A DNA stretch of 43,446 nt, taken from positions 1 through 43,446 of the forward strand of contig JAGYLL010000003.1 in assembly GCA_018401135.1 (NCBI GenBank). The letters run 5' to 3'. The notes beneath the pieces are model-generated. The model saw only the letters and a program-made list of their open reading frames with translations, was not told where the DNA came from and did no database searches. Each line of letters opens with the position of its first letter. Within the stretch, counting starts at the first letter, position 1. Both the position numbers and the translations under genes were made by a program. Origin of the DNA: Candidatus Moraniibacteriota bacterium. GTDB taxonomy: Bacteria; Patescibacteriota; Minisyncoccia; Moranbacterales; GCA-2747515. Below, piece after piece: positions 39,379-43,446 of this stretch.

Positions 39379-39934
39379 GACTTCTTGTATTCTCTCTTAT
39401 TCCGCGCGTAGGCGGGGATCCATTCCGAATCCCTCCGCTCTCTGTTCAAAGAAGACAAAGAAAATACTGGACCCCTCCCGCCACGGCGGGATCACGGGGG
39501 AGGTTTTCTCTTTTATTTTCTCAGGTAGGCGGGGACCCAGTCTTTCTTCTTTTCCTTTGTTAAAAGAGTATTTTGAGCACCCCTCCTTTCTTTTCTCTCT
39601 TTGCCAAAAGAGTATCCCGAGCTTTCTCATCTCTTTTCTCTCTTTGCCAAAAGGGAGTACCCCGAAGGGGGGGGATTCTCTTGATTTCAGACGAAGAAAA
39701 TCCCCCTCAATCCCCCTTTTCCTAAGGGGGAGGAAGAGGATATCTTTTGGCAAGGAGGAGGAAGAGAGGACACCTTTTCTTCAGGGAGAGAATAATGCGA
39801 AGAGGGAAAATTTTCCGAGTTTCTTCCCTTCCACACCTCTTTATTTCCACCACTTGCAAAAAAGGGCTTTTTCTTGTATAAAGAGTCGTCACGGCATGAC
39901 CGTGATATAACAGAAAAAACAGGAGTAAATACGC
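39379..39934. repeat. intergenic zone of REP-like and C/G-run repeats
   Basis: No gene is supported. Repeated units include GGCGGGGATCCATTCC (39411-39426), the palindrome CCCGCCACGGCGGG (about 39477-39490), GGCGGGGACCCAGTCTT (39528-39544), a doubled AATCCCCCTC segment near 39700-39720 answered by AAGGGGGAGG, and repeated TTTGCCAAAAG.AGTA.CCCGA near 39599-39665. Two units match the first 110 bases of the window. Long open frames on both strands here come from the repeats and are not considered genes. Confidence 0.65.
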
Positions 39935-40153
39935 GTGAACGCAGTTGAAAGAACTGCAGACTCAAGTTTGGTGGCCAAAACAGCACTCCTCATAGCAGAA
40001 GATAGATATCTTCACATGAAGAGAGAATACAGAAGATGCTCTTCGGCTTGCCAAAAAGGTCTTGAGAAAGAAGATCCAAGCGGAATTGTTTGTTTGTTGG
40101 ATTGGATGGTCCGTTTAAGAGACTCTAGCCAAATGATGGCTATGAAGAAGTAA
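39935..40153 (+). CDS. small hypothetical protein, 72 aa
   Basis: A GTG start with AGGAG nine bases upstream (39921-39925), a 72-codon frame, and an intrinsic terminator 35 bases after the stop form a complete small unit. The protein (MNAVERTADSSLVAKTALLI...) is helical, with mixed charge, three cysteines and two Trp/Leu-rich turns (CLLDWMVRLRD). It has no signal peptide. I do not recognise it. Base composition is richer in G+C than the large genes around it, like the orphan gene at 25881. Confidence 0.5.
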   Translation: MNAVERTADSSLVAKTALLIAEDRYLHMKREYRRCSSACQKGLEKEDPSGIVCLLDWMVRLRDSSQMMAMKK

Positions 40154-40187
40154 ATAAAATCAGCTACTCCCGAAACGTTCCTCTTGA

Positions 40188-40217
40188 GGTATGCTATACA
40201 AACGCATACCCTTTTTT
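40188..40217 (+). terminator. intrinsic terminator after the small gene
   Basis: GGTATGC (40188-40194) pairs with GCATACC (40204-40210) around a nine-base loop, followed by CTTTTTT. It supports real transcription of the 39935-40153 gene. Confidence 0.75.
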
Positions 40218-40272
40218 ATAAAAGCTTATTTCAATAGAGTTTCTAGAAAATTTTTTCTTTTCCCCGTTTCTT

Positions 40273-40299
40273 CCTTCCGTCCGCCGCCGTAGCGGAAGG
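40273..40299. repeat. GC-rich hairpin
   Basis: CCTTCCG (40273-40279) pairs with CGGAAGG (40293-40299) around a C/G-rich loop. It lies before the promoter of the large exported protein and looks like the other REP-type hairpins rather than a terminator, since no T run follows. Confidence 0.4.
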
Positions 40300-40315
40300 G
40301 GGCCATCCGAAAAAA

Positions 40316-40343
40316 TCGACAAAAAATAAAAAATGAGTATACT
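40316..40343 (+). promoter_or_regulatory. promoter of the exported esterase-like gene
   Basis: TCGACA at 40316-40321, 16 bp, TATACT at 40338-40343. Transcription would start near 40350, after an in-frame ATG at 40333 but before the ATG at 40375, and so points to 40375 as the real start. Confidence 0.45.
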
Positions 40344-40374: not shown

Positions 40375-43300
40375 ATGACTACGCAGAAGAGTTTCTCGAG
40401 AAAAAAGTACACCTTTTTTCTTTTTTGTATAGTTTTTATGGGTTTGGGTTTTTCTGCAAACCCCATTTTTGCCCAAGAGTATGATCACTTGAAATATAGT
40501 CATATACTTATCGAAGAAGATACGGTATGGAGTGAAAGTTTCGTTCAAGAAGATTTTCGAAAAAATATAGCTATTGTTAACGACGCAACACTTACTATCC
40601 AAGCTGGTACAAAAGTAGAAATAGGAGAACTTTCTGTTTTTGATGGAAGAATTGTAGCACAAGGAACAAAAAACAATCCTATTATCATAACCAAAGGAGC
40701 ATCCCTTCCGCTTACAGAAGATCAAAAAAATTATGATCCAAAATGCTTTCCGTTTAACGAATCTCCAGGAACAATACAATTTTATGATGAACCTCAAACA
40801 TCTGGCGATGAAGAGACCTCCTTTTTTTCCTTTGTTATTTTTCAAAATATGGGGACATCTATACATCACGATGGTATTGGTTGTCCTTTCAATTTAGCAA
40901 AAAATAAATCTTTCTTTCCTTTTATTTCTTCAGTTTTAGCTGGTCCTCCTGTACAGAGAGATATTCCCACGATAGATTTCTTTGACGGACGTTTGTTTAT
41001 GGAAAACGTTTCTTTCCAAAATTCAGCTTTTGCCGATATTCGAGTTGATATATATCCCTATTCTGATGATGAAGAAGATGATGATCAGGTTTTTACTTTT
41101 CTCTCTATTAAAGATTCTAATTTTGAGAAAATGACTTCCTCCAACAAAGCACTTCTTTCAATGAGTGAACTTTCGAATTCCTACCAAAGAGGTTTCTATG
41201 AAAGAATTCACCTTATAAACAATTGGTATGGATCTGAAGATGGTCCCAAAACGACAGAGAATACTGAGACTGAAGGGAAAGAACTCGTAGGTGGATATGT
41301 TTTGGATGGATGGAGTCGAGAGCCTTTTGAAATAGGGGTATGTCCAGAATGTGCTTCCAATATATTTTTCCTCCCAGGCATCAAAGCGAGTAAGCTTTTT
41401 ATGGAGAAAAATGAGAAGGAAGACACTATTTGGCTCCCGACTGTTGGCAGTGATGATGTTGAAAACTTGGCACTTGATGTTGAAGGAAAAAGCAAAGAAA
41501 ATGTCTATACTAATACGGTTATGGAAAGTACGTTCGGTGGTGATATATACAAAACATTTTTCGAAAATCTTACTCAATGGAAAGAAGAAGAGATTATAGG
41601 AGATTTCAATATATTTGCCTATGACTGGAGGAAGAATGTCGAGGACATTGCCAAAAATGGAAATTCCTCTTCTCAAGAAGACATCAAACAAATGGTAGGA
41701 GCAATACAAACATTGAGTCAATCTTCGTTTACGAAAAAAGTTACGATAGTCGCTCATTCCAATGGAGGTCTTCTTGCCAAAGCACTCATTCAAGAGTTGG
41801 AGAGACTACAACAGGCACATTTAATAGAAAAATTCATTTTGGTTGGTTCTCCACAAATAGGAACACCACTCTCTGTGCTTTCTCTTTTCTATGGATATGA
41901 AGAATTTATTCCTTTTCTTCTTTCGCCATCAGACGCTCGAGATCTTGCCAGAAATATGCCGGGTGCGTATGGACTTTTGCCATCACAAACATACTTTGAT
42001 CGTATGGAAGAAAGTTTCATTTCTTTTTCTTCAGAAAATACTCGTTATAAAGATTTTCGAAAAGCGTATGGAGAGAATATTGATTCGTACGAAGAATTCC
42101 TTTCTTTCCTTTCGGGGAAAAAAGATGGTCGGGAAGAACCAAAAAAAGAAAATCTCGAACAAGAGGCAATTCTGAGAGAAAATCTTTTAGCACAAGCCAG
42201 AGAAACACATAGTCGACTTGATGCGTGGAGTCCGCCAGAAACGCTTGATGTTATTCAAATTGCCGGTTGGGGACTGGAAACGATACGTGGTGTGCGCTAT
42301 AGCGAAAAACAAAAAGTTCGATGCTATCCTTCTATGGGAAGTTCTGTTCCTTCTTGTACAGGTGTAGGAGAATATGAACCTGTCTATGAACCTCTGTGGA
42401 CACGGGATGGTGATAAAGTCGTCGTTACTCCAAGTGCGCTTTTTTTGGAGGAATCAGAAAATGTAAAGCGGTATTGGATGAATTTATTTGATAGCGATAC
42501 TATTTTTTCAAGAGAAAAAAATCATAAAGATCTTTTTGAATCAACTTCTGTTTTGGAATTCCTTACCAATACTCTTCAGAAACTTCCTGAAAAAGAACTT
42601 CCCGAATTCATCACTTCCACACGACCCGAAGGTTTTGCAGACGAATCTTCTCGTATACGTGTTTCTCTCCACTCGCCACTCACTCTCCATCTCTATGACC
42701 AGCACGGTCATCACACAGGACGATCAGAAATCTTGTGGGAGGGAGAGAATATACCATCGATAGAAGAGACTATTCCGGGAAGTTCGTATGTTGAGCTGGG
42801 GGAGAGAAAATACCTTCATTTCTCAGGAGGGGAGGAATATAGACTAGAGCTTGTGGGATACGCCCAAGGGACGTATTCTTTGATTGTGGAAGAAATGAGG
42901 GGAGAGGAGATAATTGCGTCCAAACAGTTCACCAATCTTCCCACATCGGACAAGACGACTGTTTCCATCACCATTCCCTCTTCGGGCATAAATACTCTCA
43001 ATACGATCATTTCAGATTATAATGGCAAAGAGGCTGGGGGAGAGTATGTTGCCTATGATGGCGGAGGATATGAAGAAATACAAACAGATACTTCTTCTGT
43101 AAAAACACCCGAAGAAGGTGTTTTTGTGGAGCAAAAAGATTCTTCAGTACCAGTGCAAGAAGATAGTATACAAAAAACCTCTCTTGAGAGTGAAGATGAA
43201 AAAGAAGAAAAAACCAAAAATAATCGTATACAAAAGACGAAGTGTCTTTCTGAAAAGCCCGTAACTTCCATCGATACGCTTTTTCCGAAAGGGATTCCTC

Positions 43301-43446
43301 TCGTACAAGCTTCGTTTGAAACAAGAGAAGAATCCGAATTTTCTCCGATAGCTCCTCTGGAATCTCAAGAGGGGGAAAACGAACAACAGCAAAGAAAAGA
43401 AGAAAGAAAAAAGAGAGAGTGGTGGGGATTACTCCTTGGTGGGGGA
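40375..43446 (+). CDS. large exported protein: beta-helix-like domain plus LCAT-like lipase/esterase (3' end beyond window)
   Basis: An uninterrupted frame runs to the last base of the window, at least 1024 aa. Residues 1-33 are a signal peptide (basic start, hydrophobic core, cleavage after NPIFA). About 50-230 has repeats like ATLTIQAGTKVEIGELSVFDG, typical of right-handed parallel beta-helix proteins. Then follows an alpha/beta hydrolase resembling lecithin-cholesterol acyltransferase: FLPGIKASKL (about 332), FAYDWRKN (about 414-421), nucleophile motif VAHSNGGLL with Ser462, VGSPQIGTPLS, NMPGAYGLLPSQTYF, the acidic RDGDKVVV (Asp678/680) and NHKDL (His717). A beta-rich part and a long acidic/Lys-rich linker end in REWWGLLLGGG, possibly the start of a membrane anchor. 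Numbering uses the ATG at 40375; the ATG at 40333 would add 14 residues. A surface lipase or acyltransferase is inferred; the substrate is unknown. Confidence 0.8.
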   Translation, partial: MTTQKSFSRKKYTFFLFCIVFMGLGFSANPIFAQEYDHLKYSHILIEEDTVWSESFVQEDFRKNIAIVNDATLTIQAGTKVEIGELSVFDGRIVAQGTKNNPIIITKGASLPLTEDQKNYDPKCFPFNESPGTIQFYDEPQTSGDEETSFFSFVIFQNMGTSIHHDGIGCPFNLAKNKSFFPFISSVLAGPPVQRDIPTIDFFDGRLFMENVSFQNSAFADIRVDIYPYSDDEEDDDQVFTFLSIKDSNFEKMTSSNKALLSMSELSNSYQRGFYERIHLINNWYGSEDGPKTTENTETEGKELVGGYVLDGWSREPFEIGVCPECASNIFFLPGIKASKLFMEKNEKEDTIWLPTVGSDDVENLALDVEGKSKENVYTNTVMESTFGGDIYKTFFENLTQWKEEEIIGDFNIFAYDWRKNVEDIAKNGNSSSQEDIKQMVGAIQTLSQSSFTKKVTIVAHSNGGLLAKALIQELERLQQAHLIEKFILVGSPQIGTPLSVLSLFYGYEEFIPFLLSPSDARDLARNMPGAYGLLPSQTYFDRMEESFISFSSENTRYKDFRKAYGENIDSYEEFLSFLSGKKDGREEPKKENLEQEAILRENLLAQARETHSRLDAWSPPETLDVIQIAGWGLETIRGVRYSEKQKVRCYPSMGSSVPSCTGVGEYEPVYEPLWTRDGDKVVVTPSALFLEESENVKRYWMNLFDSDTIFSREKNHKDLFESTSVLEFLTNTLQKLPEKELPEFITSTRPEGFADESSRIRVSLHSPLTLHLYDQHGHHTGRSEILWEGENIPSIEETIPGSSYVELGERKYLHFSGGEEYRLELVGYAQGTYSLIVEEMRGEEIIASKQFTNLPTSDKTTVSITIPSSGINTLNTIISDYNGKEAGGEYVAYDGGGYEEIQTDTSSVKTPEEGVFVEQKDSSVPVQEDSIQKTSLESEDEKEEKTKNNRIQKTKCLSEKPVTSIDTLFPKGIPLVQASFETREESEFSPIAPLESQEGENEQQQRKEERKKREWWGLLLGGG

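Follow-up and report, generated by a model that had tools for sequence, protein, structure and literature searches.

A multidomain LCAT-type protein is encoded at the end of a Moranbacteria contig

The window analyzed here (43,446 bp) is one complete contig (C23, JAGYLL010000003.1) of a Moranbacteria genome, the assembly of which comprises 820 kb in 64 contigs and is 97% complete. At the end of the window, a forward-strand frame (40375 to 43446) is open from the ATG at 40375 to the final contig base, giving 1024 codons with no stop, or 1038 codons (14 additional residues) if started at the in-frame ATG at 40333. Because the contig ends inside this frame, the C terminus of the encoded product, here called the LCAT-type protein, is missing. 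The frame is a real coding sequence, as a chance origin is excluded by a match to the Pfam family LCAT, by homologues that reach 45% identity over residues 15 to 884 and occur in 24 of 57 related genomes, and by 260 loci encoding relatives in GTDB species-representative genomes. The nearest named relatives belong to Candidatus Moranbacteria/Moraniibacteriota, as anticipated by an initial annotation, made from the sequence alone, which guessed that the organism was a member of the candidate phyla radiation (CPR).

For an AlphaFold2 model derived from 61 sequences of the window and the loci, the mean predicted local distance difference test score (pLDDT) was 81.7; most blocks of residues 41 to 890 scored >85, with weaker stretches at approximately 111 to 150, 171 to 190, and 231 to 270. 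Sequence and model together predict a signal peptide, a short β-helix, a hydrolase of the LCAT/PLA2G15 fold, a β-sandwich, and a disordered tail, arranged as follows.

40375 to 40473, forward strand: signal peptide, residues 1 to 33 (SRKK, then FFLFCIVFMGLGF, then SANPIFA followed by Q), from the sequence and a modeled helix at residues 8 to 24
40495 to 41319, forward strand: short β-helix-like region, residues 41 to 315, ending in NNWYGSEDGP, with >20 short modeled strands
41347 to 42609, forward strand: LCAT/PLA2G15-fold α/β hydrolase domain, residues 325 to 745, from PF02450, Foldseek, and profile matches
41758 to 41760, forward strand: candidate nucleophile Ser462 (in AHSNG), unchanged in all 20 relatives compared, drawn from both classes, and in a 61-row alignment
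42412 to 42414, forward strand: candidate acid Asp680 (in DGD), invariant and aligned with the Asp of GDGDGTV in PLA2G15
42523 to 42525, forward strand: candidate base His717, invariant wherever the region is present
42646 to 43080, forward strand: β-sandwich, residues 758 to 902 (HSPLTLHLYDQHGHHTG...), all-β, with pLDDT >90 over most of its length
43084 to 43446, forward strand: charged disordered linker (residues 904 to 1002) and start of a C-terminal helix (residues 1003 to 1020), cut by the contig end

The hydrolase domain resembles PLA2G15, LCAT, and Tle4

The match to Pfam LCAT (PF02450) had an E value of 2.2e-16 and a score of 60.5 bits, against a curated cut-off of 21. The initial annotation had called for a structure prediction and fold comparison; when the AlphaFold2 model was compared with the PDB using Foldseek, PLA2G15 came first (E = 8.9e-15, TM-score on target of 0.67), followed by LCAT (1.3e-11) and Tle4 (3.2e-10). 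A profile of 20 relatives searched against PDB sequences found Tle4 (8e-9), PLA2G15 (2e-7), and LCAT (3e-5). With PLA2G15 and LCAT, the window protein shares the fold (TM-scores on target of 0.62 to 0.69), the order of motifs, and the positions of the Ser and Asp. It differs from them in its low identity (16 to 17%), its bacterial origin, and its fusion to a predicted N-terminal β-helix and a C-terminal β-sandwich.

The motifs PG (residues 334 to 335), YDWR (416 to 419), and AHSNG (460 to 464), plus the Asp and His, are present in the window protein, and the order conserved in the family is PG-W-YDWR-GxSxG-LLP-DGD-H. Two classes of relatives were distinguished, AHSNG, to which the window protein belongs, and AHSMG. 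Invariance of Ser462, Asp680, and His717 was checked in the 20 relatives from both classes, using every sequence that reached the site, and in the 61-row alignment. All three residues were conserved throughout and, with positions matching those of the LCAT family, form a candidate triad. The initial annotation had named Asp678 or Asp680 as the acid. Of these, Asp680 was retained, while Asp678 was rejected, the position being K, N, S, V, Y, or E in most of the AHSMG class. The claim of an LCAT-type enzyme with a Ser-Asp-His set was thus upheld by the Pfam match, the top-ranking folds, and the invariant residues; fold and residues, from sequence and model, argue strongly for a hydrolase, and its relationship to lipid-acting enzymes makes a phospholipid or other lipid the likely substrate.

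Alternatively, the enzyme could be a non-lipid esterase that deacylates a host polysaccharide, peptidoglycan, or a storage polymer, with the β-helix serving as a carbohydrate-binding module. β-Helix folds are common in polysaccharide-binding proteins, and polyhydroxyalkanoate (PHA) depolymerase and carboxylesterase folds appeared lower in the Foldseek list. However, the top folds were by far lipid-acting, and the motif order is kept across the family, and we therefore regard this alternative as unlikely. Even less probable, to the point of being hardly credible, is a structural surface adhesin in which the hydrolase domain is no longer catalytic. Such a role would suit a large multidomain surface protein with variable termini, some paralogues of which are broken (L012, L026, and L047), but the Ser, Asp, and His are invariant in all intact relatives.

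Export is predicted, while a membrane anchor is not established

The predicted signal peptide agreed with the initial annotation, with the N-terminal sequence and modeled helix being accompanied by a hydrophobic N-terminal stretch in 62 of 70 full-length relatives. The cleavage site was read by eye, without a predictor, and no lipobox was seen in the window protein. The β-helix-like region proposed earlier was likewise recovered in the model, where its strands largely had pLDDT >85 and the loops were weaker. The window copy of this region gave no Pfam match, and a profile of the N-terminal region drew no useful match from the PDB. Among the relatives, on the other hand, longer proteins of identical domain order matched Pfam Beta_helix (4e-21) and also NosD, and window-type and longer-type N termini were aligned by hhalign with 97.4% probability over 61 columns. 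Compared with parallel β-helix surface proteins of the Beta_helix/NosD type, which the longer relatives match strongly, the predicted helix of the window protein is short and is fused to a hydrolase.

The β-sandwich that follows the hydrolase is common to both LCAT classes (hhalign, 92%). Beyond it, the initial annotation had envisaged a charged stalk leading to a membrane anchor. This was not established, as the modeled tail consists of approximately 100 disordered residues (pLDDT of about 30 over most of the linker) and a helix that meets the contig end, and a strongly hydrophobic C-terminal helix was found in only 7 of 70 complete relatives. The remaining relatives ended in FIMAH-like helices, amphipathic Trp-rich helices, or a "GLVIPYxxTxxGxIxIxY" tail. 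A transmembrane (TM) anchor is possible for the window protein as well, given that L050 and L027, two relatives from the same family, are anchored. In one relative with a "GLTVPY" tail (L034), an OmpL47-type domain, named from Leptospira surface proteins, was located after the β-sandwich at residues 931 to 998 (NCBIfam NF047446, 1.1e-16).

LCAT-type genes are common in the order

The Pfam LCAT cut-off was passed in 85 of 131 genomes of the order, mostly by frames of about 600 to 1400 residues, and in a broader draw from the phylum 62 of 380 genomes had matches, many of them weak. Of the 260 loci, 80 were retained, and these came from Moranbacteria, Kaiserbacteria, Nomurabacteria, Zambryskibacteria, Taylorbacteria, Lloydbacteria, and other Patescibacteria/bacteria, with one mislabeled-looking record. 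This record, "Micavibrio sp. isolate IMS_BF-2" (L048, DYDB01000008.1), was rejected as a non-CPR holder of the gene. Its protein is that of a Moranbacteria relative, and the record is probably mislabeled because the C terminus is identical to that of G004:C17. No relative was found in viral contigs, and a viral origin was rejected, giant-virus LCAT-like folds being only remote structural matches. Some LCAT genes contained stops or frameshifts (L012, L026 in G042, and L047), suggesting pseudogenes or assembly errors.

The initial annotation had advised a search of other CPR genomes for the same domain order. This order is not restricted to the window protein, being common among Moranbacterales genomes and shared by the longer relatives, and some members of the AHSMG class (L124 to L131) carry Pfam β-helices. 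The annotation had also known of no described family with this domain order. Our literature search, which left most subscription papers outside its reach, found no description of this domain order or of the gene pair presented below. The individual domains are of known kinds; their joining, and the partner families linked to them, are undescribed as far as the searched literature shows.

Small membrane protein genes adjoin the LCAT-type genes of relatives

When the neighbors of 66 LCAT loci were compared, one family, mostly of 125 to 150 residues with four TM segments (4-TM), was found to adjoin 48 of them, in most cases starting 0 to 35 bp past the hydrolase stop. Counting as a partner any open reading frame (ORF) of 90 to 260 residues with at least 3 predicted TM segments within approximately 80 bp, a small TM ORF followed 59 of 68 complete AHSNG genes; for the remaining genes of these loci, the count was 8 of 297. 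A search of the order for the 4-TM family gave 64 matches spread over 44 genomes. An LCAT match was also present in 42 of these genomes, and 51 of the partner matches lay directly downstream of an LCAT gene of the same orientation. The 4-TM partner was modeled as a confident four-helix bundle (pLDDT of 89), with no PDB fold match and no Pfam, NCBIfam, or PADLOC family. In the AHSMG class, a different small TM partner of approximately 95 residues was found, with 45 of 52 matches near an LCAT gene (37 upstream and 8 downstream). Kinship between the two partner families had no support (probability of 2%). The window genome contained no second LCAT locus and no match to the 4-TM partner, even at E values up to 10; the missing C terminus and partner are therefore either lost to a gap in the assembly or not present at all.

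Pairwise distances of enzymes and 4-TM partners were correlated (r = 0.66; largest of 999 permutations, 0.13), a correlation that shared descent alone could produce. Tandem 4-TM copies occurred in several loci, with two in each of L046, L050, L077, and L079 and five in L120 (1512 to 4609). L057 held two full enzyme-partner pairs, and in L122 (4474 to 6513) four small TM genes followed an LCAT C-terminal fragment. Within most tandem loci, L077 excepted, the C-terminal halves of the partners were similar (often 60 to 92%), while the N-terminal halves, comprising TM1 and the outer loop, were only about 20 to 53% similar (L050, 0.92 versus 0.39; L046, 0.85 versus 0.28). Two paralogous enzymes from one genome were 90 to 100% identical in the tail and 50 to 68% in the cap region. 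This divergence, seen in a few loci, fits a diversifying recognition between enzyme and partner, although ordinary partner orthologues also diverge more in the N-terminal than in the C-terminal half, as a milder trend.

These data bear on a possible, if doubtful, alternative, in which the enzyme would be secreted as an antibacterial lipase effector that harms competitors or host cells, with the small TM protein conferring immunity and nutrition being a by-product or absent. An effector-immunity system should have a dedicated adjacent partner gene, and this is what the relatives show, although it is not visible for the window copy. The partner is also often duplicated without the enzyme (as in L046, L050, L077, L079, L120, and L122), and the uneven divergence of tandem partners and of the enzyme cap points in the same direction. 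Furthermore, the closest solved relative by profile, Tle4, is an antibacterial phospholipase delivered by the type VI secretion system (T6SS) of Pseudomonas aeruginosa. Tle4, solved with its immunity protein Tli4 (PDB 4r1d), is likewise an enzyme paired with a neighboring protective gene, the protective role of the 4-TM partner being putative. On the other hand, the catalytic domain is conserved rather than swapped, and the contrast between partner halves is modest given the orthologue trend. Tli4-type immunity is not known to involve a 4-TM protein, and the 4-TM partner has no fold match in the PDB. T6SS delivery would go with a lack of signal peptide and linked VgrG/PAAR; the window protein has a Sec signal peptide and so does not fit this pattern, although no T6SS gene families were searched. 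For the partner, we tentatively place self-protection or immunity first, over a tether or importer.

A possible role in lipid acquisition

The initial annotation had considered a host-dependent setting, and the window genome was found to lack matches to the main lipid-synthesis genes examined, namely, ketoacyl synthase, PlsC, PlsY, and CDP-alcohol phosphatidyltransferase, all in a search for which control bacteria were positive. Since these four families are without a match, the bacterium probably depends on external lipids. An enrichment of lysolipids in samples rich in CPR bacteria has previously been reported, and phospholipase A was put forward there as their possible origin (PMC7242380). 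For Vampirococcus lugosii, it has been proposed that a predicted secreted phospholipase provides this CPR bacterium with lipids from its host (PMC8080830), a role similar to the one considered here; this is another lineage, and the passage on the enzyme names neither its family nor a β-helix or TM partner.

We consider it somewhat more probable than the opposite that the window protein is a hydrolase of acyl esters, of the LCAT/PLA2G15/Tle4 type, which is exported, probably associates with the cell surface, and acts in the manner of a phospholipase A to release acyl chains and lysolipids from other cells. As judged from sequence and model, the signal peptide would export the protein and the β-helix would act as a stalk or adhesion module holding the hydrolase off the cell. 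Ser462, Asp680, and His717 would then cut an acyl chain from phospholipids of a neighboring or dead cell, yielding a fatty acid and a lysolipid. The downstream small polytopic membrane protein, whose gene is linked in relatives and presumed to lie in the missing window sequence, may act at the producer's membrane, either protecting against the enzyme or handling its products, and the lipid-auxotrophic cell could use what is released.

Several observations weigh against this reading. The LCAT fold is also found in acyltransferases and in esterases of other kinds, hydrolysis being predicted here from sequence and structure models, and a hydrolase-partner pair is the pattern expected of an antagonistic effector with its immunity protein. 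The window's own genome gave no match to the 4-TM partner, and the absence of lipid synthesis rests on four families in a 97% complete assembly. In addition, both the LCAT gene and the partner gene are missing from some genomes of the same family, and lipid-auxotrophic members can therefore do without the system.

A broader and more tentative proposal is that of a Parcubacteria-wide two-gene lipid system, in which a β-helix-mounted LCAT-type phospholipase and a dedicated 4-TM partner (3-TM in the second class), the partners being of undescribed families, would serve to remove lysolipids and fatty acids from other cells. If so, it would supply the missing enzyme behind the CPR lysolipid enrichment, and the partner and the enzyme cap would be diversifying in concert. 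Should the pair prove to be an effector and its immunity protein, host-dependent bacteria would have in it a weapon for use on contact. To the open question of how CPR bacteria acquire the lipids that they are unable to make, the LCAT-type protein brings a common, named candidate enzyme with defined catalytic residues and a linked, undescribed membrane protein family, which together make the question directly testable.

The region upstream of the LCAT-type gene

Just upstream of the LCAT-type gene, a GTG-initiated ORF of 72 codons (39935 to 40153, forward strand) had no evidence for being a gene. It lies within a stretch of approximately 950 bp (39380 to 40330) without a clear gene, which holds diverged direct repeats. 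Among these, the direct repeat GTAGGCGGGGAYCCA is present at 39408 and 39525, where none would be expected by chance.
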